Shown in pieces: positions 17,842-48,474 of a stretch of DNA of 64,000 nt; positions within the stretch are counted from its first letter, which is position 1, and every line of letters begins with the position of its first letter. The translations under genes and the position numbers were made by a program. The stretch comes from Rhodovulum kholense. GTDB taxonomy: Bacteria; Pseudomonadota; Alphaproteobacteria; Rhodobacterales; Rhodobacteraceae. Where the stretch lies: positions 1 to 64,000 of the forward strand of contig NZ_QAYC01000007.1 in the NCBI RefSeq assembly GCF_003053725.1, read 5' to 3'. The notes under the pieces are model-generated. The model made no database searches. It was not told the DNA's origin and worked only from the letters and a program-made list of their open reading frames with translations.

Positions 17842-18678
17842 GTGGAGTGGCTGACCGATCACAAGATTCCCGTGGGCCATGTCGCCAGCACGATCTTCGA
17901 CTGGCTCAGGGACAATGCCGAGGTCGTGCTGGACGCCATCGCCGCGGTGATGGAGGCGATGATCGACGCGATCCTCTGGGTGCTGCAGACGCCGCATCCG
18001 GCAGTGGTCACGCTGGGGTTCGTCGCGCTGACCTATGCGCTGCAGCGCAGCTGGAAGACCTGCCTTGCGGTGGCGCTGGGCTTTCTCTTCATCCTCAACC
18101 AGGGCTATTGGGAAGAGACCACCGAAAGCCTGACGCTGGTGCTGTCGGCCTGCGTGGTCTGCATGGCGATCGGGGTACCCATCGGCATCGGCGCGGCGCA
18201 CCGGCCGAAGCTTTACACCTATCTGCGGCCGATCCTCGATCTGATGCAGACCCTGCCGACCTTCGTCTACCTGATCCCGGCCATCGTCTTCTTCGGTATC
18301 GGCATGGTGCCGGGGCTGATCGCCACGGTGATCTTCGTGCTGCCCGCGCCGATCCGGCTGACCTATCTGGGGGTGTCCTCGACGCCGAAGGCCCTGCTGG
18401 AAGCCGCGACCGCCTTTGGCGCCACGCGCGGGCAGACGCTGTTCAAGGTCGAGCTGCCCTATGCCTTTCCGCAGATCATGGCGGGGCTCAACCAGACCAT
18501 CATGCTGTCGCTGTCGATGGTGGTGGTCGCGGCCCTGGTCGGCGCCGACGGGCTGGGCGTGCCGGTGGTGCGCGCGCTCAATCAGGTCAACACCGCGCTT
18601 GGCTTCGAATCCGGCTTCGTGATCGTCGTGGTGGCGATCATGCTCGACCGCATCCTGCATGTGAGGGCGCGCAAATGA
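17842..18678 (+). CDS. choW: Choline ABC transporter permease
   Basis: A 278-residue inner-membrane permease of the ProW/OpuAB class. About six to seven hydrophobic helices are visible, and the EAA-type cytoplasmic loop is LLEAATAFGATRGQTLFKVELP (about residues 186-207). The start is GTG 17842, supported by GGAGGGAG 7 bases upstream. The stop overlaps the choV start (ATGA), so the two are translationally coupled. Together with ChoX and ChoV it forms the high-affinity choline importer. Confidence 0.93.
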   Translation: MEWLTDHKIPVGHVASTIFDWLRDNAEVVLDAIAAVMEAMIDAILWVLQTPHPAVVTLGFVALTYALQRSWKTCLAVALGFLFILNQGYWEETTESLTLVLSACVVCMAIGVPIGIGAAHRPKLYTYLRPILDLMQTLPTFVYLIPAIVFFGIGMVPGLIATVIFVLPAPIRLTYLGVSSTPKALLEAATAFGATRGQTLFKVELPYAFPQIMAGLNQTIMLSLSMVVVAALVGADGLGVPVVRALNQVNTALGFESGFVIVVVAIMLDRILHVRARK

Positions 18679-19703
18679 CCCCGACCGCGCTTCGTATCGA
18701 CAACGTCTCGATCGTCTTCGGGTCCCATCCCGACCGCGCCCTGCCGCTGATGGACCAGGGCAAGACCCGGGCCGAGGTGCAGGCCGCGACCGGCCAGGTG
18801 CTGGGGGTGCACGATTGCAGCCTGACCGTCGAGACCGGCGAGATCCTGGTGCTGATGGGGCTTTCGGGGTCCGGCAAGTCGACGCTTCTGCGCGCGGTGA
18901 ACGGGCTGAACCCCGTCGTGCGCGGCAAGGTCGAGGTCAATGACGGCACCGGCATGGTCGACGTGACCCATGCCGATGCCGCCACCCTGCGCCGCATCCG
19001 CATGCATCACGTCGCGATGGTCTTCCAGCAATTCGGCCTGCTGCCCTGGCGCACGGTACGCGAGAATGTGGGGCTCGGGCTCGAATTGTCGGGGGTCGGG
19101 CGCCGCGAGGCGCGCGAGCGGATCGACGAGCAGCTGTCGCTGGTCGGGCTGGCCGACTGGGGCGACCGCCGCGTGGGCGAGCTGTCGGGCGGCATGCAAC
19201 AGCGCGTGGGGCTTGCCCGCGCCTTCGTCACCCAGGCGCCGATCCTGCTGATGGACGAACCGTTCTCGGCGCTCGATCCGCTGATCCGGGCCAAGCTGCA
19301 GGACGAGTTGCTGGAGCTGCAGCAGCGGCTGAAGCGCACCATCCTTTTCGTCAGCCACGATCTCGACGAGGCGTTCAAGCTGGGCAACCACATCTCGATC
19401 ATGGAGGGCGGCCGGATCGTCCAGACCGGCGCCCCGCCCGAGATCTTCCGCGACCCGAAGAACGACTATGTCGCCGATTTCGTCCAGCACATGAACCCGC
19501 TGGGCGTGCTGCGCGCGCGCGATCTGATGCAGCCCGCGACCGGCAGCCCCGAGGTCACCATCGAGGCCGACGCGCTGATCCGCGACGGCATGGACCGGCT
19601 GATCGGCGCGACCGTCCCGCTGGGCGTGGTCGAGGACGGCCGCCTGATCGGCCAGATCGGCAAGGACGACGTGCTGCGCGGGCTCTGCCGGCCCGCCGTC
19701 TAG
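18675..19703 (+). CDS. choV: Choline ABC transporter ATP-binding protein
   Basis: A 342-residue ATPase of the ProV/OpuAA type. Walker A is GLSGSGKST, the signature LSGGMQQRVG and Walker B ILLMDEPFSALDP; the H-loop is FVSHD. A C-terminal extension after about residue 275 (DALIRDGMDRLIG to IGKDDVLRGL) is a shortened CBS-like segment, as in other glycine-betaine or choline importers where it can sense ionic strength. The N-terminus has the ProV-like insertion (ALPLMDQGKTRAEVQAATG) before the ATPase core. Last gene of choXWV. Confidence 0.93.
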   Translation: MTPTALRIDNVSIVFGSHPDRALPLMDQGKTRAEVQAATGQVLGVHDCSLTVETGEILVLMGLSGSGKSTLLRAVNGLNPVVRGKVEVNDGTGMVDVTHADAATLRRIRMHHVAMVFQQFGLLPWRTVRENVGLGLELSGVGRREARERIDEQLSLVGLADWGDRRVGELSGGMQQRVGLARAFVTQAPILLMDEPFSALDPLIRAKLQDELLELQQRLKRTILFVSHDLDEAFKLGNHISIMEGGRIVQTGAPPEIFRDPKNDYVADFVQHMNPLGVLRARDLMQPATGSPEVTIEADALIRDGMDRLIGATVPLGVVEDGRLIGQIGKDDVLRGLCRPAV

Positions 19704-20176
19704 CGCCTGCGGTCCAGCGCCCGGCGTCTGGACCCCATCCAGCCATCCCCCGTCCGGCGCCGGCCTGACGCGGCAAGGCCCTGTCCGGTCCGCCGGGCGG
19801 GGCCGATGCGCCATCGGCCGACGCCCGACAGGGTCCGATACATCGGCCACACCCGGGTTCCCCCGGGCACGGTCATCTTTTTTCACTTTTTTCGGAACCG
19901 GGCGCCCCCGGCTGCGTTTACCAACCACAGGTGGCGCGCCGTGGGCGGAGACCGGCCTGCGGGGGATCGCGAGGAGACCCCCCGCAGGCCTGCGTTTTCC
20001 CGGCTTGCCCGGGGCGCGGGTCCAGGACCGGCCCCGGGATGGTGCGTTTCCGGGGGCTGCGGCCGCTTCGGCCGCGCGAAGGTGCCACCCTGGCGCCGTA
20101 TCTCTCCCGGATCACCGACAGCCCCGAAGGTTCGGGCCGTTGCGGCCCGTGCGCAAGCAACCAGAGGAGACCGTCC
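19704..20176 (+). other. Intergenic region between choV and the TRAP operon
   Basis: These 473 bases have no convincing gene. After the choV stop there is a 7-base stem (GGTCCAG/CTGGACC, 19711-19734) and, further on, CCCGGG arms (about 19853-19868) followed within about ten bases by two T-rich runs (19876-19889). These could end choXWV transcription. The right half contains a strong hairpin described separately and the ribosome binding site of the TRAP binding-protein gene. Confidence 0.5.
19954..19990 (+). terminator. Strong stem-loop with short T-run upstream of the TRAP operon
   Basis: A perfect 12-base stem (GGCCTGCGGGGG and its complement) with a 13-base loop, followed by TGCGTTTTCC. 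It stands 187 bases before the TRAP binding-protein start. It could be a terminator for read-through from choV or, if the TRAP promoter is upstream, a leader attenuator. Confidence 0.6.
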
Positions 20177-23740: not shown

Positions 23741-24445
23741 TCAGAGCCCGAGGCACAGCCGGTAGCTTTGCGCGAAATGCTCGCGCGCATAGGTGATCGG
23801 CGCCTCGTGCAGCCAGGTCTGCCGCTCCATCACCAGGACCGGATCGGTGGGCGAACAGCCCAGCGCGGCGGCGGCGGCGCCCGCGGGTTCGGCGTGAAAC
23901 TCCATCCCGCCATGGGTATAGGGCGCCTCGCGCACCAGCCATTCATTCGGGTTGACCGCCGCAAGATCCGCCGCAGCAATGGCAGGCACCGTCCGCAACA
24001 CCACCCAGCGCCGTTCGAACATGTGGGGGGCGCCATCCGCGAGATGCAGGCTTTCCAGATAAAGCGTCTCTTCCACCTCAGGCAGCCTCAGCCGCGCGCG
24101 CACATCCTCCGGCGCGGGGCCGGTCGCGCGCGCCAGCAGCCGGTAGCCATAGGCCTGCCCGCGCGCCTCGACCTCGCGGCGGATCTGCGGAATGTCCAGC
24201 GTCGCCTTGCGCTGCGGTGCCTCGATCACCCGGGTTCCGGCCTTGCGGCGCCGGTCGAGGAACCCCGCCTCGGCCAGGTCGCGCAGTGCGCGGTTCACCG
24301 TCGCCCGGGCACAGCCGAATTCGGTTGCGATGTCGGCCTCGTTCGGGATCAGCTCGCCCGGCGGATAGGTCCGGTCGCGGATCCGCAGCATGATGGTGTC
24401 GCGGATCGACTGCCACGAGGCGGCCCGGTCCCCGGCCATGCTCAC
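23741..24445 (-). CDS. hutC: Histidine utilisation repressor (GntR/HutC family)
   Basis: A 234-residue GntR-family regulator of the HutC subfamily. The winged helix-turn-helix occupies about residues 8-75 (YPPGELIPNEADIATEFGCARATVNRAL). A UTRA ligand-binding domain follows (about 90-230, containing NEWLVREAPYTHGG and RQTWL...PITYAREHF). In the family the inducer is urocanate. The GTG at 24445 overlaps the hutF stop by 4 bases; an in-frame ATG at 24439 is also possible. Its likely operator is the inverted repeat between hutF and hutI, so it would repress both arms of the locus and itself. Confidence 0.92.
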   Translation of the reverse strand: MSMAGDRAASWQSIRDTIMLRIRDRTYPPGELIPNEADIATEFGCARATVNRALRDLAEAGFLDRRRKAGTRVIEAPQRKATLDIPQIRREVEARGQAYGYRLLARATGPAPEDVRARLRLPEVEETLYLESLHLADGAPHMFERRWVVLRTVPAIAAADLAAVNPNEWLVREAPYTHGGMEFHAEPAGAAAAALGCSPTDPVLVMERQTWLHEAPITYAREHFAQSYRLCLGL

Positions 24446-25812
24446 AGCCCGTCCCGCAGACGGCGCATCGCGGCCGCGTAGCCCGCCACGATCTCGTCAC
24501 GCCGGACATGCCGCCCGCCCTGTACCACATGGCGCCCGGCCGACCAGACATCGCTGACGGCGCGGTCGTCGCCCGCGAAGATCCAGGTATCGAGCAGCAG
24601 ATCGCCCTGCCGCCCGATCCCGTCGGGCCCCATGTCGCCCAGCGCCAGCAGATCGGCCCAGTTGCCAACCGCAAGCCCGCCGCTGGCCCGCCCCGCCGCC
24701 TGCGCCCCGCCCTCGACCGCGCCCTGAAAGAGCACCCTCCCGGTCGAGCGGTCTTCGGAGGCCAGCGCCGCGCGGGTCCGGTCGCGCAGCCGCTGCGAAT
24801 AGTCGAGCGTGCGCAGCTCTTCGCTCAGCGAGATCCGGATATTGCTGTCCGAACCGACGCCGAAACGACCGCCCGCCTGCACCCAGCGCACCCCGTCGAA
24901 GATGCCGTCGCCAAGGCTCGATTCGGTGATCGGGCAAAGCCCCGCGACCGCGCCGGTGGCGGCCAGCGCCAGCGTCTCGGCAGGCTCCATTTGCGTCGCG
25001 TGGATCGGGCACCAGCGGGCATCGACAGGCGCGTTCTCCAGCAACCATTCGACCGGACGCCGGCCGGTCGCGGCCAGCACCTCGTCGACCTCGGCCTGCT
25101 GCTCGGCGATATGGATATGGATCGGTCCGTCGGGCGCCAGGGCCTCGGCCGCCGCCAGCCCCGCCGCATCGACCGCGCGCAGTGAATGCGGCGCGACGCC
25201 CATCCGGCAATCGGGGGCCAGGGCCGCGACATGGGTCGCCGCGCCCTCGAAAAGCCGCGCGAACCGGTCGGGATCGTTGCCGAAGCGGTCCTGCCCCGCG
25301 ACCAGCGCCCGCCGGTCGAGCCCGCCATAGGTGTAAAGCACCGGCAGCAGCGTCAGACCGATGCCCGAGACAGCCGCCGCCGCCGCGATCCGGCCCGACA
25401 TCTCGGCCGGATCGGCATAGGGCGCGCCGCCGGGGCCATGATGCAGGTAGTGGAACTCGACATTGGCGGCATAGCCCGCCTCCAGCATCTCCATCTGCAC
25501 GAAGGCGGCGATGGCCTCGACATCCTCGGGGCCGAGCCGGTCGAGAAAACGGTACATCAGCCGCCGCCAGGTCCAGAAACTGTCGCGCGGATCGGGACCG
25601 CGGGATTCGGTCAGCCCCGCCATCGCCCGCTGAAAGGCATGGCTGTGCAGGTTCGCGGGCGCGGGCAGAAGCGTCTCGACAACCGTCGCACCGGGCGGAC
25701 AGGGCGCGTTTTCACGCAATTCCGCGATCTTTCCGCCGCTTTCGACGGCGATTTCCACATTTTCCGCCCAGGAATTCATCACAAGCGCATGGCGCGCCCA
25801 GACCCGTTGCAT
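24442..25812 (-). CDS. hutF: Formimidoylglutamate deiminase
   Basis: A 456-residue amidohydrolase converting N-formimidoylglutamate to N-formylglutamate and ammonia, the step before HutG in the five-step histidine pathway. The metal-binding H-x-H is in [13 protein letters not shown]; further ligands lie in IHIHIAEQQ and in [12 protein letters not shown] (Asp). ATG 25812 is chosen because GGAGG stands 8 bases ahead; the frame stays open to 27045 only because it runs antisense to hutI. It is the first gene of the leftward hutF-hutC unit. Confidence 0.93.
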
Positions 25813-25828
25813 CGCCTGATCCTCCGCG

Positions 25829-25869
25829 TTGACTTGATTATTATGTGCAGACATATACCCTGCAATCAA
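25829..25869. promoter_or_regulatory. Divergent hut promoters with candidate HutC operator
   Basis: The 72 bases between hutF and hutI are AT-rich. Rightward: TTGACT (25829-25834), 17 bases, CATATA (25852-25857). Leftward: TTGATT (25864-25869 complement), 18 bases, CATAAT (25840-25845 complement). Between them the inverted repeat TATGT-GCAG-ACATA (25842-25855) overlaps both -10 regions and resembles GntR/HutC half-sites (GT...AC). A single bound repressor would block both promoters. Inference; not experimentally known. Confidence 0.6.
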
Positions 25870-25884
25870 GGAGGAGGCGATACC

Positions 25885-27068
25885 ATGACTGATCTCACCC
25901 TTGCCAATGCGGCGTTGCTGCCACTCGGGCAGGACGGCCCGCGGCGGATCGAACGGGGCTGGCTCAGGATCGAAAACGACCGCATCGCGGCGCTCGGCGA
26001 GGGCCCGGCCCCCGAGGGCGGCGCGATCGAGGATCTGGGCGGCCGTCTGATCACGCCCGCGCTGGTCGATTGCCACACCCATCTGGTCTATGGCGGCAGC
26101 CGCGCCCGCGAATTCGAGATGCGGCTGGAAGGCGCCAGCTATGAAGAGATCGCCCGGGCGGGCGGCGGGATTCTTGCGACCGTCACCGCGACACGCGCCG
26201 CCTCCGAGGACGATCTGGTGGCCTCGGCCCTGCCCCGGCTGGATTGCCTGCTGGCCGAGGGCGCGGGTACGGTCGAGGTCAAGTCGGGCTACGGGCTGAC
26301 CGTCGAGGACGAGCTGAAGATGCTGCGCGCGGCACGGCGGCTGGGCCGCGAACGCCCGGTGCGCATCGTCACCAGCTGGCTCGCGGCCCATGCCCTGCCG
26401 CCCGAATACACGGGCCGCGCCGAGGCCTATATCGACGAGGTCGCGATTGCCGGGCTGCGCGCCGCGCATGCCGAGGGACTGGTCGATGCGGTCGACGGCT
26501 TCTGCGAGGGCATCGCCTTCTCGCCCGCACAAATGGCGCGGATCTTCGATGTCGCGGCCGAGCTGGGCCTGCCGGTCAAGCTGCATGCCGAGCAGCTCTC
26601 GCATCTGGGAGGCAGCCAGTTGGTGGCCGAACGCGGAGGGCTCTCGGCCGATCATGTCGAGCATGCCGATGCCGCCGATGCCGCGGCGCTCGCGCGCGCG
26701 GGCGCGGCCGCAGTGCTGCTGCCCGGCGCCTTCTATACGCTCCGCGAGACGCAGATGCCTCCCGTCGCCGCCTTCCGCGAGGCGGGCACCGCGATGGCGC
26801 TGGCGACCGACTGCAACCCCGGCACCTCGCCGCTGACCTCGCTTCTGCTGACCATGAACATGGCCGCGACGCTGTTCCGGCTGACCCCCGACGAATGCCT
26901 GCGCGGGGTCACGGCGAACGGCGCCCAGGCGCTGGGGCTTGCCGATTGCGGTCGGCTTGAGCCCGGGATGCGCGCCGATCTTGCCGTCTGGGACATCGCC
27001 CAACCCGCCGAACTGACCTACCGGATCGGCTTCAACCCGCTTCACGCCCGTTATTTTGAGGGACGCAA

Positions 27069-27075
<7 letters not shown>
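25885..27075 (+). CDS. hutI: Imidazolonepropionase
   Basis: A 396-residue amidohydrolase that opens imidazolone-5-propanoate to N-formimidoylglutamate. It has the metal-binding motif [20 protein letters not shown] (about residues 60-80), followed by the family block [12 protein letters not shown]. Further His ligands occur in [10 protein letters not shown], and the metal Asp in [14 protein letters not shown] 25885 has an excellent GGAGGAGG site. It heads the rightward operon and its stop overlaps the hutH start by 7 bases. Confidence 0.95.
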
Positions 27076-28585
<1,510 letters not shown>

Positions 28586-28589
<4 letters not shown>

Positions 28590-29380
28590 GCCCCGTCGAC
28601 GTGACCCGGGGCGACAGCCCCGTCATCCTCGGACTGCCCCATACCGGCACCCATGTGCCTTCGGATATCCTTGCCCGGCTGAATGACCGGGGGCGCGAGC
28701 TGACCGATACCGACTGGCATGTGCACGAGCTGTATGCCGACCTCCTGCCCGGGGCGACAACGGTGCGCGCCACCTTCCACCGCTACGTGATCGACGCGAA
28801 CCGCCCGCCCGAAGATGAAAGCCTCTATCCCGGGCAGAACACCACCGGTCTGGTGCCGCTGACCGATTTCGACGGCGAACCGATCTGGGAAACCGCCCCC
28901 GACGCGGCCGAGACCGCCCGGCGGCTCGCAGCCTTCCACGCCCCCTACCACGCCGCCCTTGCGGCCGAGATCGAGCGCGTCCGCGCCCGCCATGGCGTCG
29001 CGATCCTCTATGACTGCCACTCGATCCGCTCGGTCATTCCCTATCTCTTCAAGGGCACCCTGCCCGATTTCAACATCGGCACCGCCAATGGCACGACCTG
29101 CGCGCCCGGGATCGCCGAGGCCGTTGCAGATGCCTGCGCCAGGGCCGAGGGCTATACCCATGTGCAGAACGGCCGTTTCAAGGGCGGCTGGACCACGCGC
29201 CATTACGGGCGGCCCGAGACCGGGGTTCACGCGATCCAGATGGAACTGGCGCAATCGACCCATCTGACCGCCGAGGCCGCGCCCTTCGCGCTCGACCCCG
29301 ACAAGGCCGCGCGGCTGCGCCCGCATCTGGCCGGGATCCTTGCCCGGATCGAGGCGCTGACGCCGGAGCTGGCCCTGTGA
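28586..29380 (+). CDS. hutG: N-formylglutamate deformylase
   Basis: A 264-residue hydrolase releasing formate and L-glutamate from N-formylglutamate. The motif [11 protein letters not shown] and the central [16 protein letters not shown] block are typical of the N-formylglutamate amidohydrolase family, and [22 protein letters not shown] supplies later conserved residues. The ATG at 28586 overlaps the hutH stop. With hutF present, the cell uses the deiminase/deformylase branch rather than formiminoglutamase. Its stop overlaps the GTG of the CoA transferase. Confidence 0.94.
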
Positions 29381-30573
29381 AGCCGCTGGAAGGCCTCCGC
29401 ATCCTCGATCTGACCCGGGTTCTCGCAGGGCCCTTCGCGACCGCGATCCTTGCCGATCTGGGCGCCGAGGTGATCAAGATCGAGCCGCCCCGGGGGGACG
29501 AATACCGCCATATCGGCCCCTTCCGCGACGGCGAATCCGCGCTGTTCTCGCTGAGCAATCGCGGCAAGCACTCGGTCGTTCTGGACCTCAAGGCGCCCGA
29601 GGGGCAGGCCCTGGCGCGTCGGCTCGCCGCCGGCTGCGACGTGGTGGTCGAGAATTTCCGCCCCGGCGTCGCCGCAAGGCTGGGGCTTGGCGCCGAGGAT
29701 CTGCGCCGCGACAATCCCGGCCTCGTCCATTGCGCGATTTCGGGTTTCGGGCAATCGGGGCCCGCGGCGGACCTGCCCGCCTATGACATCGTCGTGCAGG
29801 CGATGTCGGGATGGATGGCCGCGACCGGCGAGGAAGGCGGCGCGCCCCTGAAGGTGGGCGAGGCGCTGGGCGATGTCGCGGCCGGGCTTTACGCCGTCAT
29901 CGCGATCCTCGCGGCGCTGGTCGGCCGGGGCCGCAGCGGCAAGGGCGCGACGCTCGATGTCGCGATGCTCGATTGTCTGGTGGCGATGCTGCCGACGAGC
30001 CACGCGCTTCATCTTTACGCGAATGCCCCGGTGCCCCGCGTCGGCAACCGCCATCCGTTCTCGACCCCCTTCGGCGCCTTCCGCACCGCCGACGGCCATG
30101 TCGTCATCGCCGTGCTGAGCCCGCGCCAGTTCGCGGGGCTTTGTGCCGCGATCGGCCGGCCCGAAGCGGCCGAGGATCCGCGCTTTGCCACCGACGAACT
30201 GCGCACCGCGCATGAGCCCGAGATCCGCGCCATGATCGAGGCCTGGACCGGCCCCCTCCCTGCCGCCGAAGCGGTCGCAGCGCTGTCGGCCGCCAAGGTG
30301 CCTGCCGCGCCGATCCTGACGCTGGCCGATCAGCTCGGCTCGGATCATGCCGCAGCGCGCGGGCTGGTGAGCGAGCTGCCCCATCCCCGGCTGGGCAAGG
30401 CCCCGGTGGTGGGCCAGCCGGTCCGCTTCGACGGGCAGGCGCCGCGGGCCGGGACCGGCGCGCCCGCACTGGGCAGCGGCACCCGCGCGGTGCTGGAAGG
30501 GCTCGGGCTCGATCGGGACCAGATCGCGGGGCTCGTGGCCGCCGGAATTGTCAGGGAGTATGAGGATGCGTGA
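29377..30573 (+). CDS. Class III CoA transferase (CaiB/BaiF family) inside the hut operon
   Basis: A 398-residue family III CoA transferase. These enzymes move CoA between carboxylic acids through an aspartyl-CoA intermediate; the catalytic Asp is probably D166 in ALGDVAAGLYAVI. Other family blocks are LDLTRVLAGPFATAILADLGAEVIKIE at the N-terminus and NRHPFSTPFGAFRTADG (about residues 223-239). The start GTG overlaps the hutG stop (GTGA) and the stop overlaps the next start, so it is fully embedded in the hut operon. It has no role in the standard histidine pathway. Its substrate is unknown; see the findings for an inferred role on an imidazole acid. Confidence 0.9.
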   Translation: MKPLEGLRILDLTRVLAGPFATAILADLGAEVIKIEPPRGDEYRHIGPFRDGESALFSLSNRGKHSVVLDLKAPEGQALARRLAAGCDVVVENFRPGVAARLGLGAEDLRRDNPGLVHCAISGFGQSGPAADLPAYDIVVQAMSGWMAATGEEGGAPLKVGEALGDVAAGLYAVIAILAALVGRGRSGKGATLDVAMLDCLVAMLPTSHALHLYANAPVPRVGNRHPFSTPFGAFRTADGHVVIAVLSPRQFAGLCAAIGRPEAAEDPRFATDELRTAHEPEIRAMIEAWTGPLPAAEAVAALSAAKVPAAPILTLADQLGSDHAAARGLVSELPHPRLGKAPVVGQPVRFDGQAPRAGTGAPALGSGTRAVLEGLGLDRDQIAGLVAAGIVREYEDA

Positions 30574-31708
30574 GTTCGACCATCTGCTGAGCGCCGAGGA
30601 ATGCCAGTTCCTCGACATGCTGGAGAGGTTTGCCGCCGAGGTGCTGACCCCGCAGGCGGGCGAGACCGACCGCACGGGCGCCTTCGTCCATGCCCAGCTG
30701 GCGGCGCTGGCCGAGACCGGAATGATGGGCGCGAACGTGCCAGAGCGCTGGGGCGGTGCCGACATCTCGGCCCATGCCCTGTTCGAGGCGGTCGCGGCGG
30801 TCGCGGGCGGCTGCGGCTCGACGGTCTCGGCGCTGACCGCGCATTACCTCGCGACCGACAGCCTGCTGCTGGGCGGCGATGACGCGATCCGCGCGCGCTT
30901 CCTTCCGGCGGCGGCCGAGGGCCGGATGCTGGGCGCCTTCGGGCTGACCGAACCCAATGCCGGCTCGGACCCGGCCGACATGCGCAGCCGCGCCACGCGG
31001 GACGGCGAGAGCTGGCATATCAAGGGCCGGAAGTGCTTCATCTCGAATGGCGGCGTTGCCGATTTCGTCGTCGTCTTCTGCGTGACCGACCCCGAGGCGG
31101 GCCATCGCGGGATCTCGGCCTTCGTGGTCGAGAAGGGCACGCCCGGACTGGTGCCCGGCCGGGTCGAGCAGACCATGGGGCTGAAGGGCGGCCATGTCTG
31201 GGAACTCGATCTCGACGTGACCGTGCCCGATGCCAACCGCGTCGGCCCCGAGGGCTCGGGCTTCAAGACCGCGATGAAGGTGCTCGACAACGGCCGGACC
31301 GAGGTCGCGGCCATGGCCGTCGGCATCGCCCGCGCGGCCCTCGCCGAGGCCCGCGACTGGGCGAAGACCCGCATCATCGGCGGCGAGCCGCTCGCCAGCC
31401 GGCAGGGCATCCAGTGGATGCTGGCCGACATGGCGACCGAACTGTCGGCGGCCGAGCTTCTGGGCCACGAGGCCGCCCGGCAGCGGCAGGCGGGGCTGCG
31501 CTTCACCACCGCCGCCTCGAAGGCCAAGCTCTACGCCTCCGAGGCCGCCGGCCGGATCGCCGATACCGCGCTCCAGATCCATGGCGGCTATGGCTTCACC
31601 CACGATTTCCCGCTCGAACGTCATGCCCGCGACCTGCGCATCATGCGCATCTACGAGGGCTCGTCCGAAATTCAGCGCAACATCATTGCCGGCCGTCTTC
31701 TGGCCTGA
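30566..31708 (+). CDS. Acyl-CoA dehydrogenase inside the hut operon
   Basis: A 380-residue acyl-CoA dehydrogenase, the usual length of short/medium-chain members. FAD/substrate blocks LGAFGLTEPNAGSDPADM and HIKGRKCFISNGG lie in the middle; the C-terminal block is IHGGYGFTHDFPLERHARD, and the catalytic Glu is in RIYEGSSEIQRN. ATG 30566 is preferred (AGGGAG seven bases ahead); ATG 30560 is in frame. It overlaps the CoA transferase by 8 bases and lies 21 bases before hutU. Paired with a CaiB-type transferase it resembles the CaiA/CaiB pair of carnitine metabolism. Specificity is not deducible from sequence by eye. Confidence 0.9.
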   Translation: MREFDHLLSAEECQFLDMLERFAAEVLTPQAGETDRTGAFVHAQLAALAETGMMGANVPERWGGADISAHALFEAVAAVAGGCGSTVSALTAHYLATDSLLLGGDDAIRARFLPAAAEGRMLGAFGLTEPNAGSDPADMRSRATRDGESWHIKGRKCFISNGGVADFVVVFCVTDPEAGHRGISAFVVEKGTPGLVPGRVEQTMGLKGGHVWELDLDVTVPDANRVGPEGSGFKTAMKVLDNGRTEVAAMAVGIARAALAEARDWAKTRIIGGEPLASRQGIQWMLADMATELSAAELLGHEAARQRQAGLRFTTAASKAKLYASEAAGRIADTALQIHGGYGFTHDFPLERHARDLRIMRIYEGSSEIQRNIIAGRLLA

Positions 31709-31729
31709 GCTTCCGAAAGGACCCGATCC

Positions 31730-33424
31730 ATGACCAATCCGCGCCACAATACCCGCGACATCTTCCCGCCGACGGGGCCCGAGATCACCGCGAAGAGCTG
31801 GCAGACCGAGGCCCCGATGCGGATGCTGATGAACAACCTGCATCCCGACGTGGCCGAGAACCCGCATGAGCTGGTGGTCTATGGCGGCATCGGCCGCGCC
31901 GCGCGCACCTGGCAGGATTTCGACCTGATGGTCGAGACCCTGAAATCGCTCGAGGACGACCAGACCATGCTGGTGCAGTCGGGCAAGCCCGTGGGCGTCT
32001 TCCGCACCCATCGCGACGCCCCGCGCGTGCTGATCGCCAACTCGAACCTCGTGCCGCACTGGGCCACCTGGGAGCATTTCAACGAGCTCGACCGCAAGGG
32101 CCTGGCGATGTACGGCCAGATGACGGCCGGGTCCTGGATCTATATCGGCGCGCAGGGCATCGTGCAGGGCACCTACGAGACCTTCGCCGAGGCCGGGCGC
32201 CAGCATTATGACGGCGATCTCAAGGGCAAATGGATCCTCACGGGCGGTCTTGGCGGTATGGGCGGCGCGCAGCCGCTGGCCGCGGTGATGGCAGGGGCCT
32301 GTTGTCTGGCGGTCGAATGCGACGAGGATCATGCCGATTTCCGCATCCGCACCCGCTATTGCGACGAGAAGACCCACAGCCTTGACGAGGCGCTGGCGAT
32401 GATCGGGCGCTGGACCGAAGCGGGCGAGGCCAAGTCGGTCGCGCTGATCGGCAATGCCGCCGATGTCTTCCCCGAGATCCTGCGCCGGATGAAGGCGGGC
32501 GAGGCGCTGCCGAACGGGCGCCCCGACATCGTCACCGACCAGACCTCGGCGCATGACCCGTTCCACGGCTACCTGCCCAAGGGCTGGACCGTGGCCGAGT
32601 GGCGCGCCAGGCAGGAGAGCGACCCGAAGGGCGTCGCCAAGGCAGCGCGGGCCAGCATGAAGGAGCATGTCGCCGCGATGGTGGGGTTCTGGAACGCGGG
32701 CATCCCGACCCTCGATTACGGCAACAACATCCGCCAGATGGCGCTGGAAGAGGGGCTCGAGGATGCCTTCGCCTTCCCGGGCTTCGTGCCGGCCTATATC
32801 CGCCCGCTCTTCTGCCGCGGCGTGGGGCCGTTCCGCTGGGCGGCGCTGTCGGGCGATCCCGAGGACATCTACAAGACCGACGCCAAGATGAAGGAGCTGT
32901 TCCCGGAAAATGCCGGGCTGCATCGCTGGCTCGACATGGCGCGCGAGCGGATCGCCTTCCAGGGCCTGCCCGCGCGGATCATGTGGATCGGGCTTGGCGA
33001 CCGCCACCGGGCGGGGCTTGCGATCAACGAGATGGTGCGCAATGGCGAGCTGAAGGCCCCCGTCGTGATCGGCCGCGACCATCTAGACAGCGGCTCGGTC
33101 GCCTCGCCCAACCGCGAGACCGAGGCGATGAAGGACGGCTCGGACGCGGTCAGCGACTGGCCGCTCCTGAACGCGCTGCTCAATACCGCCTCGGGCGCTA
33201 CCTGGGTGTCGCTGCATCATGGCGGCGGCGTCGGCATGGGGTTCAGCCAGCATGCGGGCATGGTGATCTGCTGCGATGGCACGGAAGAGGCCGACCGCAG
33301 GCTTGAACGCGTGCTCTGGAACGACCCGGCGACCGGCGTCATGCGCCATGCCGATGCGGGCTATGAGATCGCGATCGACTGCGCGCGCGAGCACGGGCTG
33401 ACCCTGCCGGGCATCCTGAAATGA
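31730..33424 (+). CDS. hutU: Urocanate hydratase
   Basis: A 564-residue enzyme converting urocanate to 4-imidazolone-5-propanoate using tightly bound NAD+ as an electrophile. The Rossmann loop is [19 protein letters not shown] (about residues 170-190) and the conserved active-site Cys is in [15 protein letters not shown] (about residue 363 of this frame). The N-terminal block [23 protein letters not shown] is diagnostic. Start ATG has AAAGGACC upstream. Stop overlaps hutD by 4 bases. Confidence 0.96.
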
Positions 33425-33969
33425 GGCAGATCCGCCGCAGCGATCTGACGCCCGCGCCCTGGAAGAACGGGGGCGGGCTGACCTGGGAACTGGCCGCCTT
33501 CCCCGAAGGCGCGGGCTTTCCGGACATGCTGTGGCGGATGAGCCTGGCCGAGGTCGCCTCTGACGGCCCGTTCTCGGCCTTTCCCGGGATCGACCGCACC
33601 CTGACGGTGCTGTCCGGGCAGGGCATGGTCCTTGATTTCGGCGGGGGCAGCGTGACGCTGGGCGAAGACTCGGGCCCGCTGTCCTTCCCGGGCGAGGCAC
33701 CGGTGACGGCCCGGCTGGGCGCCGGACCGATCCTCGATTTCAACGTGATGACCCGGCGCGGCCGGGCCGCGCATGCGGTTATTGCCGTTTCGGCAGGCGT
33801 TCCGGCCCCGCCGGACACGCGCGCGTTGATCGCACGGCAAAAGGCCGTGACGGTCGCCGGTTTTGCCCTTGCACCCGGCGAGGCGCTCATGTCCGATCCG
33901 GGCCGGGACCTGGGCGGCACTGCCGGAGACGGGCCGATGCTTGCCATCTGCCTGCGCATGACGCCATGA
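33421..33969 (+). CDS. hutD: HutD cupin-like protein
   Basis: A 182-residue HutD-family protein with a bicupin-like fold. The N-terminal [16 protein letters not shown] block and the [19 protein letters not shown] stretch are typical. HutD is found in many hut operons; work in Pseudomonas suggests it moderates hut expression, possibly by binding urocanate or formylglutamate. It is coupled to hutU by an ATGA overlap. Confidence 0.88.
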
Positions 33970-33973
33970 ACCG

Positions 33974-34000
33974 CCCGGTGCCGGCTTTTCCGGCGCCGGG
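33974..34000 (+). terminator. Stem-loop between hutD and the importer genes
   Basis: An 11-base stem (CCCGGTGCCGG paired with CCGGCGCCGGG, one G-T wobble) with loop CTTTT, 5 bases after the hutD stop. There is no U-tract, so read-through to the importer genes is likely, perhaps reduced. Confidence 0.55.
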
Positions 34001-34070
34001 CCAGACCTTTCCGGCGCCCTCGGGGCGGGACGCCGGCCAACGCGACCAGCCCCGCCAACAGGAGAGAATC

Positions 34071-34883
34071 ATGACGCTTCGTCTTTCGCTGAAATCCGCC
34101 CTTTTCGGGCTCAGCGCCCTGGCTCTGACCGCGTCGGGCGCGCTGGCCGACCAGCTGTCCGACATCAAGGCCGCGGGCAAGATCGTCGCCGCGACCGAGA
34201 TGCACTATGCCCCCTTCGACATGCTGGAGAAGGGCGAATATGTGGGCTTCGACCGCGACCTCTTCGACGAGATCGCCAAGGAACTGGGCGTCACCCCCGA
34301 ATATCAGGACCTGCCCTGGACCTCGATCCTGCCGGGCCTCGAGGTCAACAAGTTCGATTTCGTGCTGGCCCCGGTGACGATGACGGCCGAGCGCGCCGAA
34401 CGCTATGCCTTCACCCTGCCGATCTCGGATTCGACCGTGGCCTTCGTGCAGCGCACCGGCGGCGACATGACCGCGCCCGAAGACGCCAAGGGCAAGACCG
34501 TGGGCGTGCAGAAGGGCACCGCCCAACAGGCCCAGCTTGAGGCCTATGGCGAAAAGATCGGCGGCATCAAGATCAAGGAATACGGCACCCCCGACGAGGC
34601 CTATGCCGACCTGATGACCGGCCGTCTCGACGCGGTGGCGGGCTCGGCGCCGCTTCTGGACTATATGGCCAAGTCCCGTCCGGAACAGTTCTCGGTCGTC
34701 AAGCCGCCCTTCGGCAAGCCCACCTATTTCGCCTGGGTCGCGCGCAAGGGCGAGGGCGACAGCCTCGTCGCCGCGGTCAACGAGGCGCTGATCAAGATCC
34801 AGGATGACGGCCGCATGGCCGCGCTGCAGGAGAAATGGTTCGGCGCCGCAACCGAGCTGCCGCAGGAAATGCCCGAGCTTTGA
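34071..34883 (+). CDS. ABC transporter substrate-binding protein, amino-acid (family 3) type
   Basis: A 270-residue periplasmic binding protein. The signal peptide is about residues 1-23 (cleavage near GALA-DQL). Family 3 features include MHYAPFDMLEKGEYVGFDRDL and LLAPVTMTAERAERYAFTLPI. ATG 34071 follows AGGAGAGA. Because it directly follows hutD and is on the same strand, the ligand is likely histidine, urocanate or a related imidazole acid, but the pocket cannot be read reliably by eye. Confidence 0.87.
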   Translation: MTLRLSLKSALFGLSALALTASGALADQLSDIKAAGKIVAATEMHYAPFDMLEKGEYVGFDRDLFDEIAKELGVTPEYQDLPWTSILPGLEVNKFDFVLAPVTMTAERAERYAFTLPISDSTVAFVQRTGGDMTAPEDAKGKTVGVQKGTAQQAQLEAYGEKIGGIKIKEYGTPDEAYADLMTGRLDAVAGSAPLLDYMAKSRPEQFSVVKPPFGKPTYFAWVARKGEGDSLVAAVNEALIKIQDDGRMAALQEKWFGAATELPQEMPEL

Positions 34884-34909
34884 GGCGCACCGCGTCTGAC
34901 GCGACCGAT

Positions 34910-34934
34910 GCGGGCCGGATCGCTTCCGGCCCGC
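34910..34934 (+). terminator. Intercistronic stem-loop after the amino-acid binding-protein gene
   Basis: A perfect 10-base stem (GCGGGCCGGA and its complement) with a 5-base loop, 26 bases after the stop codon, without a U-tract. It matches in form and place the hairpins after choX and the TRAP receptor gene. Confidence 0.7.
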
Positions 34935-34959
34935 CCACCAGACAGGGAGCGGCCCGCCC

Positions 34960-35607
34960 GTGTTTTCCTTTCAGACCATCGTCGAGAACCTGCCGACGCT
35001 TCTGGGCGCCGCGCGCTACACGCTGCTGATTTCCGTGCTCGGCTGTGCACAGGGGCTGATCCTCGGCGCGCTGCTTTGCGCGGCGGCGCTGTCGAAACGG
35101 ACCGCGCTGCGCCGGGCCGCCGGGCTTTACGTCAGCTTCTTTCGCGGCGTGCCGCTGCTGATCCAGCTGCTGGTGGCCTATTACCTGCTGCCGGTCGTGG
35201 GCATCAACGTGCCGCCGCTGGCCGCCGCCGTTCTGACCGTCGGGCTTTGCGCGGCCGCCTATCTATCCGAGGTACTGCGCGGGTCCATCAACGCGATCCC
35301 GAAAGGCCAGGCCGAAGCCGCGCTGGCCATCGGCATGACGCCCCGCGATCTCTGGGTCCGGGTCTTGCTGCCGCAGGCGCTGAAGATCGGCCTGCCCGCC
35401 ATCGTCAACGAGCTGATCCTGCTTGTGAAGGCCAGTTCGCTGGTGACCGTCGTCGGCATCGTCGAAATCACCCGGATGAGCCAGTCGATCGCCTCCTCGA
35501 CCTATCGATACCTCGAAATCTACCTGGCCGCCGCCTTCCTCTATCTCGCGATCAACCTGGTGATCGCCGCGGCCGGGCGGCTTCTGGAACGGAGGCTGAC
35601 GGTCTGA
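34960..35607 (+). CDS. Amino-acid-type ABC transporter permease (first)
   Basis: A 215-residue permease of the HisMQ/GlnP family with about five helices. The EAA loop is AEAALAIGMTPRDLWVRVLLPQ (about residues 117-138), and the N-terminal block SFFRGVPLLIQLLVAYYLLP is typical. Start GTG 34960 with GGGAGCGG upstream. The stop overlaps the next permease start by one base (TGATG). The two permeases would form a heterodimer. Confidence 0.9.
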   Translation: MFSFQTIVENLPTLLGAARYTLLISVLGCAQGLILGALLCAAALSKRTALRRAAGLYVSFFRGVPLLIQLLVAYYLLPVVGINVPPLAAAVLTVGLCAAAYLSEVLRGSINAIPKGQAEAALAIGMTPRDLWVRVLLPQALKIGLPAIVNELILLVKASSLVTVVGIVEITRMSQSIASSTYRYLEIYLAAAFLYLAINLVIAAAGRLLERRLTV

Positions 35608-36269
35608 TGCTGGAGATGCTGCACCGCTACGGCCCCGACCTGTTGACCGGCTTCGGGCTGACGCTTCTGACCTGGATGCTGGGCACCGCGGGCGGGCTCG
35701 TGCTTGGGTTCCTGCTGGAAATGGCCCGGCGCTTCGGACCCCGGTTCTGGGTCGGCTGGCCGATCCGGGCCTATGTCGAATTCATCCGCGGCACGCCCTT
35801 CCTCGTCCAGCTTTTCGTGCTGTACTACGGCGGACCGCTGATCGGACTGAGGCTCGACGCGCTGCCCGCGGGCGTGCTGGGCCTGTCGCTTTACGGCGCC
35901 GCCTATTTCACCGAGATCCTGCGCGCGGGCTTCGATGCGGTCCCGAAGGGCCAGATCGAGGCGGCCCGCGCCATCGGCCTGCCCGGGCGCACCATCGTCT
36001 GGCGCATCATGCTGCCGGTGATGATGGTCTCGGCCCTGCCCGCGCTGGTGAATTTCGCGATCATCCTGACCAAGGAAACCGTCATCCTGTCGATGATCAC
36101 CGTGCCCGAGATCATGTTCCAGACCCAGACGATGATGAGCGAGACCTTCGAATTCGTCCTGCCGATCCTGATCCTCGCGCTGTTCTTCTGGGGCTTCGTC
36201 GAGGTGATTTCGCGGTTCGGCCGCCGCCTCGAACGCCGCTTCACCCACTATCTTCTCGAAGAAAGCTGA
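35607..36269 (+). CDS. Amino-acid-type ABC transporter permease (second)
   Basis: A 220-residue permease homologous to the preceding one. Its EAA loop is IEAARAIGLPGRTIVWRIMLP, and YVEFIRGTPFLVQLFVLYYGG is the matching N-terminal block. ATG 35607 shares a base with the upstream stop; the open frame extends further upstream but that part overlaps the first permease. The ATPase gene starts 3 bases after its stop. Confidence 0.9.
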   Translation: MLEMLHRYGPDLLTGFGLTLLTWMLGTAGGLVLGFLLEMARRFGPRFWVGWPIRAYVEFIRGTPFLVQLFVLYYGGPLIGLRLDALPAGVLGLSLYGAAYFTEILRAGFDAVPKGQIEAARAIGLPGRTIVWRIMLPVMMVSALPALVNFAIILTKETVILSMITVPEIMFQTQTMMSETFEFVLPILILALFFWGFVEVISRFGRRLERRFTHYLLEES

Positions 36270-36272
36270 CCG

Positions 36273-37067
<795 letters not shown>

Positions 37068-37124: not shown

Positions 37125-38465
37125 TCAGAGGAAGTCAAGCTGGGTGTCGAGCATGTGGTCGAGGGCGTGGGCGCTGACGCCAAGGAAGAAGATCCCGTTG
37201 CCCGCGCCCAGATCGAGATAGCTGCCGACCGGCGTCGCGGTGATCCGTGCCTCCAGATCGGCGGCGTCGAAATCGCCGAGCCCGTTGATCCCCTGCTGGA
37301 TATGCAGCCGGTCAGTGGCGCCGAAATCGGCGATGGTGTCGACCCCGGAGGCGCCGCGAAACTCGAACACATCGGCCCCCGGGCCCCCGATCAGCAGATC
37401 GCGCCCGGCGCCGCCGTTCAGCCGGTCGTTGCCGGACCCGCCCGACAGCTTGTCGTCACCCCGCCCGCCATGGATCCAGTCATTGCCGGCCCCGCCATAG
37501 ATCTGGTCGTCGCCACGCCCGAAGTCGTCGCTCGCGGCCACGAAATCGTCGCCCGCGCCCAGCATCACCACGTCGTCGCCCGCACCCGGATCGACCCAGT
37601 CATTGCCGGACCCGGCCATGATATGATCGTTGCCGTTGCCGCCATAAATCACGTCGCGGCCGGCGCCACCATCGATCTCGTCATCGCCGTTGCCCGCCTC
37701 GATCCGGTCCTCGCCCGCGCCGCCCTCGAGCGTGTCGTCGCCGAGATTGCCGCTGAGCGTGTCGCGCCCGTCGCCGCCCGCCAGCCGGTCGTTGCCATTG
37801 TCGCCGGTCAGCCAGTCGTCACCCGCGCCGCCCACCAGCAAGTCGTCGCCGTCCCAGCCGCGCAGCACGTCGTTGCCCGCGTCGCCGTAAAGCCGGTCGT
37901 CGCCATACGAGCTGTCCAGCGTGTCGTTGCCCGCACCCCCGAAAAGCACATCGCCCGCGGCAAGCTTGCCCGCGCGGAAGGCGGCCCAGTCGCTTTGGCC
38001 GGGGGCAAGCTGCGATCCGGAGCGGGTGTCGAGCACGTCGTCGCCGTCGCCGCCGCTCAGCAGGTTGGCCCCGGCCCCGCCGACCAGAAGATCGTTGCCC
38101 CCGCCGCCGAACAGCACGTCATTGCCGTCGCCGCCATAAAGCACGTCATCGTCGTCGCCGCCCGCCAGGGAGTCGTCGCCGCCCATACCGCAGATCCGGT
38201 CGCGATCGCCATTCCCGAACAGGACATCGGCGCCCCAGCCACCGGTGATCGTGTCATCGCCGTCGTTCATCCAGGCAAAGTACGCCGGAAAATAGGCGTT
38301 GGGGATCACGAGAAAATTGTTGGGCCCGTCGTAGCCCACGCTGAATGCCCCGGTTTCGGCAAGCTGGACCGGCGCTGCGGGCAAGGAGCGACCGATAGCG
38401 CGGAATTCGGCCGCAAGCTCGGCCAGAAGATAGGGATAGTCCTTGTCGGAGCGGAAATATGCCAT
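37125..38465 (-). CDS. RTX (haemolysin-type calcium-binding) repeat protein
   Basis: A 446-residue acidic protein. After about 70 unique residues, residues 70-385 are built of many GGxGxDxLx-type nonapeptides (for example GGDGNDVLFGGGGNDLL), which form a calcium-binding parallel beta-roll. The C-terminal DTIADFGATDRLHI and following region resemble the usual RTX end and type I secretion signal; there is no N-terminal signal peptide. A repeat-free insert (TRSGSQLAPGQSDWAAFRAGKLAAG) interrupts the array. No enzyme domain is recognisable and no type I secretion genes are in the window. Probably a secreted surface or matrix protein. Confidence 0.85.
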   Translation of the reverse strand: MAYFRSDKDYPYLLAELAAEFRAIGRSLPAAPVQLAETGAFSVGYDGPNNFLVIPNAYFPAYFAWMNDGDDTITGGWGADVLFGNGDRDRICGMGGDDSLAGGDDDDVLYGGDGNDVLFGGGGNDLLVGGAGANLLSGGDGDDVLDTRSGSQLAPGQSDWAAFRAGKLAAGDVLFGGAGNDTLDSSYGDDRLYGDAGNDVLRGWDGDDLLVGGAGDDWLTGDNGNDRLAGGDGRDTLSGNLGDDTLEGGAGEDRIEAGNGDDEIDGGAGRDVIYGGNGNDHIMAGSGNDWVDPGAGDDVVMLGAGDDFVAASDDFGRGDDQIYGGAGNDWIHGGRGDDKLSGGSGNDRLNGGAGRDLLIGGPGADVFEFRGASGVDTIADFGATDRLHIQQGINGLGDFDAADLEARITATPVGSYLDLGAGNGIFFLGVSAHALDHMLDTQLDFL

Positions 38466-47251: not shown

Positions 47252-48463
47252 ATGACAGACGCTTTCATCTACGACGCCGTCCGCACCCCGCGCGGCAAGG
47301 GCCGCAAGGACGGCAGCCTGCACGAAGTGACCTCGCTGCGGCTGTCGGCGGTGGTTCTGGACGCGCTGAAGGACCGGAACGGGCTCGAGGGCCATGCGGT
47401 CGAGGACGTGATCTGGGGCAACGCGACCCAGGTCGGCGAACAGGGCGGCTGCCTTGCGCGCAGCGCGGTGCTGGCCTCCGGGCTCGATGAATCGATCCCG
47501 GGGCTGTCGATCAACCGCTTCTGCGCCAGCGGGCTCGAGGCGGTGAACCTTGCCGCCAACCAGGTGCAGGGTGGTGCGGGCCACGCCTATATCGCGGGCG
47601 GGGTCGAGATGATGGGCCGGGTCGCCATGGGCAGCGACGGGGCCGCCATCGCCGTCGACCCGAGCCTGGCGATGAAGACCTATTTCGTCCCCCAAGGCAT
47701 CTCGGCCGACATCATCGCGACCGAATATGGGTTCTCGCGCGACGATGTCGACGGGCTGGCTGTCGAAAGCCAGAAGCGGGCGGCGCGGTCCTGGGAGGAG
47801 GACCGCTTTGCCCGCTCGATCGTGCCGGTGAAGGACGTGAACGGGCTGACCATCCTCGGGCGCGACGAATACATGCGCCCGGGCACCGACATGCAGACGT
47901 TGGGCGCACTGAAACCCTCGTTCAAGGACATGGGCGAGATGATGCCCGGCTTCGATCAGCTGGCGCTGATGAAATACCCGCATCTTGAACGGATCGAACA
48001 TGTGCATCATGCGGGCAACTCGTCAGGCATCGTCGATGGCGCGGCGGGCATCCTGATCGGCAGCGCCGAGTTCGGTCAGGCGCACGGGCTGAAACCCCGG
48101 GCGCGGATCCGGGCCACCTGCAAGATCGGCACCGATCCGACCATCATGCTGACCGGCCCCGTGCCCGCGACGCAGAAGATCCTCAAGGATGCGGGCATGC
48201 AGATTTCCGACATCGACCTGTTCGAAGTGAACGAAGCCTTCGCGGCCGTCGTCTTGCGCTTTATGCAGGCCTTCGATGTGGACCCGAGCGTGGTGAACCC
48301 CTGCGGCGGGGCCATCGCGCTGGGTCACCCGCTGGGCGCGACCGGGTCGATCATCCTCGGCACGCTGCTCGACGAGCTCGAGCGGACCGGCAAGGGCACC
48401 GGGCTGGCGACGCTTTGCGTGGCCTCCGGCATGGGCGCCGCAACCATCATCGAACGGGTCTGA
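47252..48463 (+). CDS. fadA: Acetyl-CoA C-acyltransferase (3-ketoacyl-CoA thiolase)
   Basis: A 403-residue thiolase, last step of beta-oxidation. The nucleophilic Cys is in INRFCASGLEAVN (about residue 90), the His in GGAIALGHPLGATGS and the second Cys in TLCVASGMGAATI. EVNEAFAAVVL is the other active-site block. Start ATG with GAGGAGGAC upstream. It is 11 bases ahead of the fadB-type gene, giving fadA-fadB order. Confidence 0.92.
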   Translation: MTDAFIYDAVRTPRGKGRKDGSLHEVTSLRLSAVVLDALKDRNGLEGHAVEDVIWGNATQVGEQGGCLARSAVLASGLDESIPGLSINRFCASGLEAVNLAANQVQGGAGHAYIAGGVEMMGRVAMGSDGAAIAVDPSLAMKTYFVPQGISADIIATEYGFSRDDVDGLAVESQKRAARSWEEDRFARSIVPVKDVNGLTILGRDEYMRPGTDMQTLGALKPSFKDMGEMMPGFDQLALMKYPHLERIEHVHHAGNSSGIVDGAAGILIGSAEFGQAHGLKPRARIRATCKIGTDPTIMLTGPVPATQKILKDAGMQISDIDLFEVNEAFAAVVLRFMQAFDVDPSVVNPCGGAIALGHPLGATGSIILGTLLDELERTGKGTGLATLCVASGMGAATIIERV

Positions 48464-48474
48464 GGGAGGCGAGA

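Follow-up and report, generated by a model that had tools for sequence, protein, structure and literature searches.

A CoA-transferase and acyl-CoA dehydrogenase gene pair in a hut operon of Rhodovulum kholense as a probable route from imidazole propionate to urocanate

Results

A gene pair between hutG and hutU

The stretch of DNA under study, here called the window, comprises 64,000 nucleotides of Rhodovulum kholense (NCBI RefSeq assembly GCF_003053725.1, contig NZ_QAYC01000007.1, positions 1 to 64,000 of the forward strand). It carries a compact histidine-utilisation (hut) operon on the plus strand, from ~25885 to 37067, in which hutI, hutH and hutG are followed by genes for a class III CoA-transferase and an acyl-CoA dehydrogenase (ACAD), by hutU, a hutD-like gene and a four-gene ABC importer (Table 1). 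It is the two CoA-handling genes that concern us here, as a candidate route by which imidazole propionate could enter histidine degradation. The products of hutI, hutH, hutG, hutU, hutF and hutC each score above the cut-off of their curated NCBIfam model. Measured against the known system (HutH-HutU-HutI-HutF-HutG, with HutC and HutD), the window has the five-step pathway and its regulator with the pair inside, and the pair would add an entry point at urocanate. To our knowledge, none of the textbook hut enzymes is a CoA-transferase or an ACAD.

The reading frames interlock closely. The GTG start of the transferase gene (29377) shares four bases (GTGA) with the TGA stop of hutG (29378-29380), and the ACAD gene begins with an ATG at 30566, eight bases inside the transferase gene, which ends at 30573 (an ATG in the same frame at 30560 is an alternative start); hutU follows with an ATG at 31730, 21 bases after the ACAD end. 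A preliminary description, made from the sequence of this DNA alone, had placed both genes here with the same boundaries and overlaps and had labelled them class III CoA transferase and acyl-CoA dehydrogenase; the coordinates hold, and the domain matches agree with the labels. The gene behind hutU is named hutD-like mainly from its position.

Table 1. The hut operon of the window, with the gene pair and the divergent genes
Feature	Coordinates	Strand	Support
hutC, GntR/UTRA-type histidine-utilisation repressor, divergent	23741..24439	-	TIGR02018, 247.6 bits (cut-off 220)
hutF, formimidoylglutamate deiminase, divergent	24442..25854	-	TIGR02022, 560.6 bits (cut-off 413.05)
hutI, imidazolonepropionase	25885..27075	+	TIGR01224, 428.6 bits (cut-off 298.15)
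hutH, histidine ammonia-lyase	27069..28589	+	TIGR01225, 683.9 bits (cut-off 539.15)
hutG, N-formylglutamate deformylase	28586..29380	+	TIGR02017, 370.0 bits (cut-off 278.75)
Class III (CaiB/BaiF) CoA-transferase, 398 aa; proposed imidazole propionate/urocanate CoA-transferase	29377..30573	+	PF02515
Acyl-CoA dehydrogenase (ACAD), 380 aa; proposed imidazolepropionyl-CoA dehydrogenase	30566..31708	+	PF02771/PF02770/PF00441
hutU, urocanate hydratase; proposed consumer of the pair's product	31730..33424	+	TIGR01228, 933.0 bits (cut-off 375)
hutD-like (HutD/Ves)	33421..33969	+	NF008488, 68 bits (under cut-off 292)
Amino-acid-type ABC importer, operon end	34071..37067	+	PF00497, PF00528, PF00005
Importer binding protein	34071-34883	+	
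Importer permease	34960-35607	+	
Importer permease	35607-36269	+	
Importer ATPase	36273-37067	+	

Family membership of the two enzymes

Both proteins belong clearly to broad families, and neither reaches the cut-off of any NCBIfam model. The transferase matches PF02515 with 431.7 bits (cut-off 23.3) over residues 4-367. Its best NCBIfam match is the succinate-glutarate CoA-transferase NF052585 (311.7 against a cut-off of 750), and it scores 142.1 against 413 for the L-carnitine CoA-transferase CaiB (NF002914) and 245.1 against 504.2 and 275.1 against 522 for the formyl-CoA/oxalate CoA-transferases (TIGR03253 and NF008511). In the ACAD, the N-terminal, middle and C-terminal domains are all over their cut-offs (PF02771, PF02770 and PF00441, respectively), and the best NCBIfam match is the acryloyl-CoA reductase AcrC (NF042972, 357.4 against 640); the scores for crotonobetainyl-CoA dehydrogenase/reductase CaiA (NF002885, 142.4 against 540) and glutaryl-CoA dehydrogenase (NF045552, 215.8 against 470) also stay under the cut-off. 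Since the curated cut-offs are unreached, we rejected the carnitine, oxalate, glutarate, mesaconate and acryloyl-CoA systems. The nearest solved structures are succinate-hydroxymethylglutarate and formyl-CoA-type transferases for the one protein and general ACADs for the other.

The putative catalytic positions are retained. Asp166 of the transferase is Asp in all 61 aligned rows, with Asp137 conserved equally; Asp166 may correspond to the catalytic position of Frc (Asp169) and CaiB. Glu364 of the ACAD, in a C-terminal R-I-Y/F-E-G context, is found in 61 of 62 rows, the remaining row being truncated, and is presumably the catalytic residue. Other ACAD positions are almost invariant in the clade and rare in 14 other ACADs, among them Cys83, Thr86, Asp98 and Trp284 (60-62 of 62 rows); they would be expected around the acyl pocket if they recognise the imidazole ring.

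The pair is constant and repeatedly adjoins hut genes

To follow the pair beyond the window we used 61 loci carrying the ACAD clade: three from genome contigs, 11 from the window's family, nine from plasmids (9 of 14 records with the ACAD were tabulated; L232, also a hut operon, stands outside the counts) and 38 from the class, the phylum and three further families. The fetched stretches covered up to ~11 kb per side; 7 of the 61 had less than 6 kb on one side, and L110 and L211 are cut by contig ends. A hut catabolic gene was counted when HutU, H, I, G or F matched at 40% identity or more within the stretch.

At 61 of 61 loci the transferase gene lies directly upstream of the ACAD gene on the same strand. 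The 11 family loci (L105-L115) and the three genome-contig loci were found via the transferase query, and pairing there is not independent; the fair count is 47 of 47, for loci found with the ACAD alone as query. The clade spans Alpha-, Beta- and Gammaproteobacteria, and a hut catabolic gene lies in the stretch at 34 of 61 loci, in several gene orders. As a control we used 80 genome-contig loci with related CoA-transferases, chosen by transferase similarity only (48 with full flanks): hut genes occur at all three loci that have the ACAD clade versus 2 of the 77 without it. On these counts of pairing, hut linkage and control loci, we rejected a chance insertion.

The preliminary description had proposed a search of other genomes for co-occurrence of the pair with hutU, and such co-occurrence was found: 51 of 53 pair genomes encode HutU, and at 22 of 61 loci it directly adjoins the pair on the same strand. 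Of the two genomes where HutU was not found, one is 73% complete and the other is a draft in which a contig end truncates the cassette. For loci whose stretch lacks hut genes, nearly all of the searchable whole genomes encode HutU at another position. The module itself is rare, with 9 carriers among 398 sampled genomes of the phylum and 5 among 337 of the class; three families picked for a carrying member have it in 15 of 200, 4 of 200 and 14 of 198 genomes. In the window's family the transferase is found at E <= 1e-100 in 18 genomes, six of which have no ACAD of the clade.

Locus architectures

The surroundings of the pair vary more than the pair itself. The window's family and Paracoccus plasmids share the order hutH(-hutG)-caiB-acad-hutU (L105-L109, L111, L133 and L134; L110 is cut inside acad), and the importer set of the window's operon is also found 3' of hutU in L105-L107, L109, L133 and L134. 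On plasmid pAMI6 of Paracoccus aminophilus JCM 7686 the pair stands between hutG and hutU. Downstream of the pair in the Thioclava plasmid locus, hutU (L232:13163-14853) matches in two overlapping frames and may be frameshifted.

Family f187 has a different order, hutU-caiB-acad-NCS1-like permease, mostly behind a GntR gene and with or without hutI-hutG (L157, L206-L218). Nine of its 14 loci are free-standing cassettes, four lie amid other hut genes and one is cut by a contig end. The nine free-standing cassettes carry their own hutU and have neither hutH nor hutI in the stretch (L210 and L216 end at hutU); all nine genomes have two HutU matches, and the four with a hut-embedded pair have one. 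With a second hutU and no visible hutH in such cassettes, the product of the pair should be the HutU substrate, urocanate. Providencia burhodogranariea (L011) extends this order to hutU-caiB-acad-NCS1-like permease followed by the beta and alpha subunits of electron-transferring flavoprotein (ETF) and ETF:quinone oxidoreductase (ETF-QO); its HutU reaches 974.5 bits with TIGR01228, over the cut-off of 375.

At 32 of 61 loci a LysR gene is divergent from caiB-acad, either near hut genes (for example L007, L012, L115, L153, L155, L158, L190 and L205) or free-standing. ETF genes occur in five of six loci of family f209 (L197-L202), an NCS1-like permease in five and both in four; L200 ends early. 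In L007, L158 and L205, a 633-aa gene that follows the pair was considered as a CoA ligase and discarded, as it reads by eye as a RecQ-like helicase.

The richest neighbourhood belongs to L190 and L193, where an FAD oxidase, a 2OG-Fe(II) oxygenase (tested in L190), LysR, caiB-acad, an ABC importer, a HisC-type aminotransferase, HutC, HutH and HutU stand together; the cluster suggests a combined set for imidazole lactate and imidazole propionate. Elsewhere (L132:2881-10137 and L140:7829-16146) the pair lies beside a Rieske oxygenase (VanA-type in L140) with its reductase, a HisC-type aminotransferase and a GlcD-like FAD oxidase, possibly an entry for imidazole lactate or N-methyl-histidine. In genus g675 (L219, L221 and L222) a second hutU lies behind a GntR gene and is followed by genes that encode an MFS transporter and a member of the arginase family, as tested in L219. 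All 7 pair genomes of g675 have two HutU matches, versus 0 of 15 others listed with HutU, an association that is suggestive only, with the second hutU away from the pair in the three loci read and kinship uncorrected.

Redox partners and nearby CoA enzymes

An ACAD introduces an alpha,beta double bond into a CoA ester, handing the electrons to ETF, and a class III transferase shuttles CoA between acids. ETF-QO is encoded in 53 of 53 pair genomes versus 3 of 14 control genomes, and the sole ETF-QO match of the Providencia genome lies inside the cassette. That ETF and the only ETF-QO are part of this cassette argues for oxidation.

Other CoA-handling enzymes are scarce around the pair. Seven queries (two CoA ligases, a thiolase, a FadB-type protein, a hydroxyacyl-CoA dehydrogenase and two enoyl-CoA hydratases) at E <= 1e-8, a search that would miss distant or unrelated ligases, gave matches in only 2 of 61 stretches: a thiolase-like gene 10 kb away in L113 and a hydratase-like gene 4.4 kb away in L156, neither of them adjoining the pair. 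With ligases, hydratases and thiolases almost absent nearby, the module seems to serve only to make the double bond, and the acid should leave free.

Trees of the two enzymes and a wider transferase superclade

In a tree of 62 clade rows and 14 other ACADs, the clade is split from the latter with full support, and hut-linked rows occur in all four larger subclades. The hut label changes 8 times within the clade and 9 times with the outgroup, and at least 7 changes are forced by well-supported branches. Hut-linked rows in each of the larger subclades and repeated label changes point to a hut link that was kept or rebuilt repeatedly; from these counts we cannot tell gain of the link from its loss. 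The transferase tree has 113 rows, comprising among others 60 of the 61 loci and the window; L135 (stop in frame) is left out of tree and alignment, and L050-L086 of the 80 genome-contig loci are left out of the tree. Fine placement is uncertain in these quick trees, as outgroup branches are long in both and the transferase tree has a midpoint root.

The transferases of the pair form one superclade with two other groups (support 90, not starred). In the first group (L118, L120, L121, L008 and L010, the last on a 3.5-kb contig), a medium-chain dehydrogenase/reductase (MDR) oxidoreductase replaces the ACAD where the neighbourhood is visible. Three members from the window's family combine this type with IclR and TRAP genes and with an adjoining HutU above the TIGR01228 cut-off (L118:7262-11941, L120:3230-7922 and L121:3545-8222), and a betaproteobacterial metagenome-assembled genome has transferase and MDR (quinone oxidoreductase-like) near hutF and hutI (L008:9051-11176).

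The second group (L116, L009, L117 and L119) has two ACAD genes at each locus. A thiourocanate hydratase over the NF058530 cut-off of 930 accompanies them in L116 (975.8) and L009 (966.1), and also on the Paracoccus aminophilus plasmid pAMI4 (L225; 1033.4), which shares the L116 arrangement of transferase relative, two ACADs and thiourocanate hydratase. L116 further contains an S-methyl-thiohydantoin-type DUF917 enzyme, an amidohydrolase, an M20 hydrolase and TRAP genes, and we take its cluster to be of the ergothioneine type. The three loci (L116:1031-12633, L009:1022-13501 and L225, 4031-14281) possibly encode a route for thio-imidazole propionate. Nine plasmid records carry a hydratase that shares 70% identity or more with the L116 enzyme, and of these only pAMI4 has such a transferase nearby among the 30 records compared; the transferase is thus an optional add-on there, as in hut operons.

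More distant transferases (47-50% identity, outside the tree) are found on Rhizobium, Agrobacterium, Neorhizobium and Sodalis plasmids. Their clusters (L226-L229) run ABC importer (osmoprotectant-type in one record), HutH-like lyase, CoA-transferase, hydroxyacyl-CoA dehydrogenase and enoyl-CoA hydratase, and resemble a pathway that would shorten the side chain of an aromatic or imidazole betaine by beta-oxidation. What all these groups share may be the transfer of CoA to acrylic acids like those that ammonia-lyases form.

Discussion

We conclude that the pair is probably a desaturase module that turns imidazole propionate into urocanate for the hut pathway. The CoA-transferase would load CoA onto imidazole propionate (dihydrourocanate), and the FAD-dependent dehydrogenase would strip two hydrogens from the ester to give urocanyl-CoA, its electrons passing through ETF and ETF-QO to the respiratory chain. 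The transferase could then shift CoA from urocanyl-CoA to the next imidazole propionate and free urocanate for HutU, HutI, HutF and HutG, with priming CoA perhaps coming from succinyl-CoA; for this recycling of CoA we see roughly even chances. The hutU-only cassettes, the presence of ETF-QO and the few beta-oxidation genes nearby together point to urocanate as the product and to its dihydro form, imidazole propionate, as the substrate. The preliminary description had arrived at the same reaction, which gains from the linkage to hutU; it had named, as a result that would refute it, a clear phylogenetic placement of both enzymes with an unrelated substrate (carnitine or branched-chain acids, for example), and neither enzyme falls clearly with one, as no NCBIfam cut-off is reached and both trees join the pair to relatives linked to urocanate-type hydratases. 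We infer the substrate, the direction and the recycling of CoA from gene content, conservation, hutU linkage, the presence of ETF-QO and the conserved catalytic positions.

Several observations weigh against this assignment. At 27 of 61 loci the stretch holds no hut catabolic gene, and most of these loci have a divergent LysR gene and no direct clue to the substrate. HutU is common in family f209 anyway, with 146 of 200 genomes versus 15 of 15 pair genomes (hypergeometric probability 0.007, kinship uncorrected); co-occurrence alone is therefore weak, and adjacency bears the argument. Within the transferase superclade, L117 and L119 have no hydratase in the fetched stretch, and the Rhizobium and Sodalis relatives, with their lyase, hydratase and dehydrogenase, indicate that the wider transferase family takes other acids too. 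A run of thiolase-, FadB- and ligase-like genes (by eye) lies ~15 kb downstream of the pair in the window, outside the operon.

The hut-less loci, the other lyases beside the transferase relatives and the Gemmobacter and Mesorhizobium pairs next to a Rieske oxygenase, a HisC-type aminotransferase and a GlcD-like oxidase would all suit a pair that acts on another saturated acid (an aryl propionate, a methylated imidazole propionate or a short acyl group) and sits in the hut operon for co-regulation only. However, the hutU-only cassettes require a product that HutU can use, and the link to hutU persists while the gene order around it varies between subclades, so we consider another acid unlikely. 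The pair could also recycle a side product or isomer such as cis-urocanate instead of an external carbon source, as its packing between hut enzymes and an amino-acid-type importer in the window's family might suggest. Free-standing cassettes with their own permease or regulator (LysR or GntR) are, however, what one expects for an imported substrate, and of the explanations considered here we give this one the least credence.

Direction is a separate question, since an ACAD whose best match is an acryloyl-CoA reductase, below the cut-off, leaves it unfixed by sequence alone. The transferase could place CoA on urocanate and the dehydrogenase reduce the ester, with formation of imidazole propionate as an electron sink, in the manner of UrdA by other chemistry. 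But ETF-QO in every pair genome, together with the Providencia cassette, fits oxidation into the quinone pool, and the window's operon also encodes the route from urocanate to glutamate; a reverse run is thus very improbable, if marginally less so than the recycling of a side product.

The oxidative desaturase module has parallels among known systems. In carnitine metabolism, CaiB and CaiA are a class III transferase beside an ACAD-fold enzyme, with CoA cycled between substrate and product. The window pair has the same composition; unlike CaiB/CaiA, it stays far under the corresponding equivalog cut-offs, and its proposed redox direction is opposite. The urocanate reductase UrdA is a flavoprotein that reduces free urocanate to imidazole propionate without a CoA ester. 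It has these two metabolites in common with the proposed route and differs from it in direction, fold and use of a CoA ester. In ergothioneine and thiourocanate catabolism (L116, L009 and pAMI4), a transferase relative and two ACADs stand beside the NF058530-passing hydratase; these systems differ from the window pair in the thio-analogue, the two-gene ACAD and the TRAP genes (present in L116 and near in pAMI4). It is tempting to see the superclade as serving imidazole acrylates and propionates with interchangeable redox modules, namely ACAD with HutU, MDR with HutU and two-gene ACAD with thiourocanate hydratase, which together would bring imidazole propionate and its thio-analogue, the saturated dead-end acids derived from histidine and ergothioneine, back into degradation by CoA catalysis. 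We hold this wider view tentatively, at somewhat less than even confidence.

Imidazole propionate is a product of gut microbes. Published work reports that it is raised in prediabetes and diabetes (PMC7676231) and associated with heart failure and mortality (PMC12512386), and it is termed non-metabolizable in a review from 2025 (PMC11872695). Passages of a 2026 preprint deal with how UrdA makes the compound and how the hut route competes with this, and do not touch on its degradation (PMC13320830). Bacterial degradation of the same compound is indicated by the title of Coote and Hassall 1973, on Pseudomonas testosteroni and imidazolylpropionate (cited in PMC9157411 and PMC3953581). Among the literature matches listed (titles and abstract openings), none describes a CoA-dependent route for imidazole propionate, and six names for the CoA esters of the proposed route found no mention in the literature searched; subscription papers lay mostly outside both searches.

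If the proposed reaction is correct, cells with the pair turn imidazole propionate back into urocanate and consume it, and bacterial removal of the compound becomes directly testable through a named two-gene route. The pair would then supply candidate genes for the 1973 observation, made in an organism now called Comamonas testosteroni, and a genomic marker for bacteria that destroy imidazole propionate.

Other features of the window

The thiolase- and FadB-like run lies on the plus strand at 47252-53373, where genes read by eye as a thiolase, a FadB-type multifunctional enzyme and a CoA ligase. ARAGORN reports a tRNA of undetermined type at 19619-19707 on the plus strand, overlapping the end of a predicted gene (18675-19703) and probably false. 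Just past the hut and ABC importer operon, at 37125-38465 on the minus strand, lies a gene for an RTX protein with ten stretches of calcium-binding repeats (PF00353).

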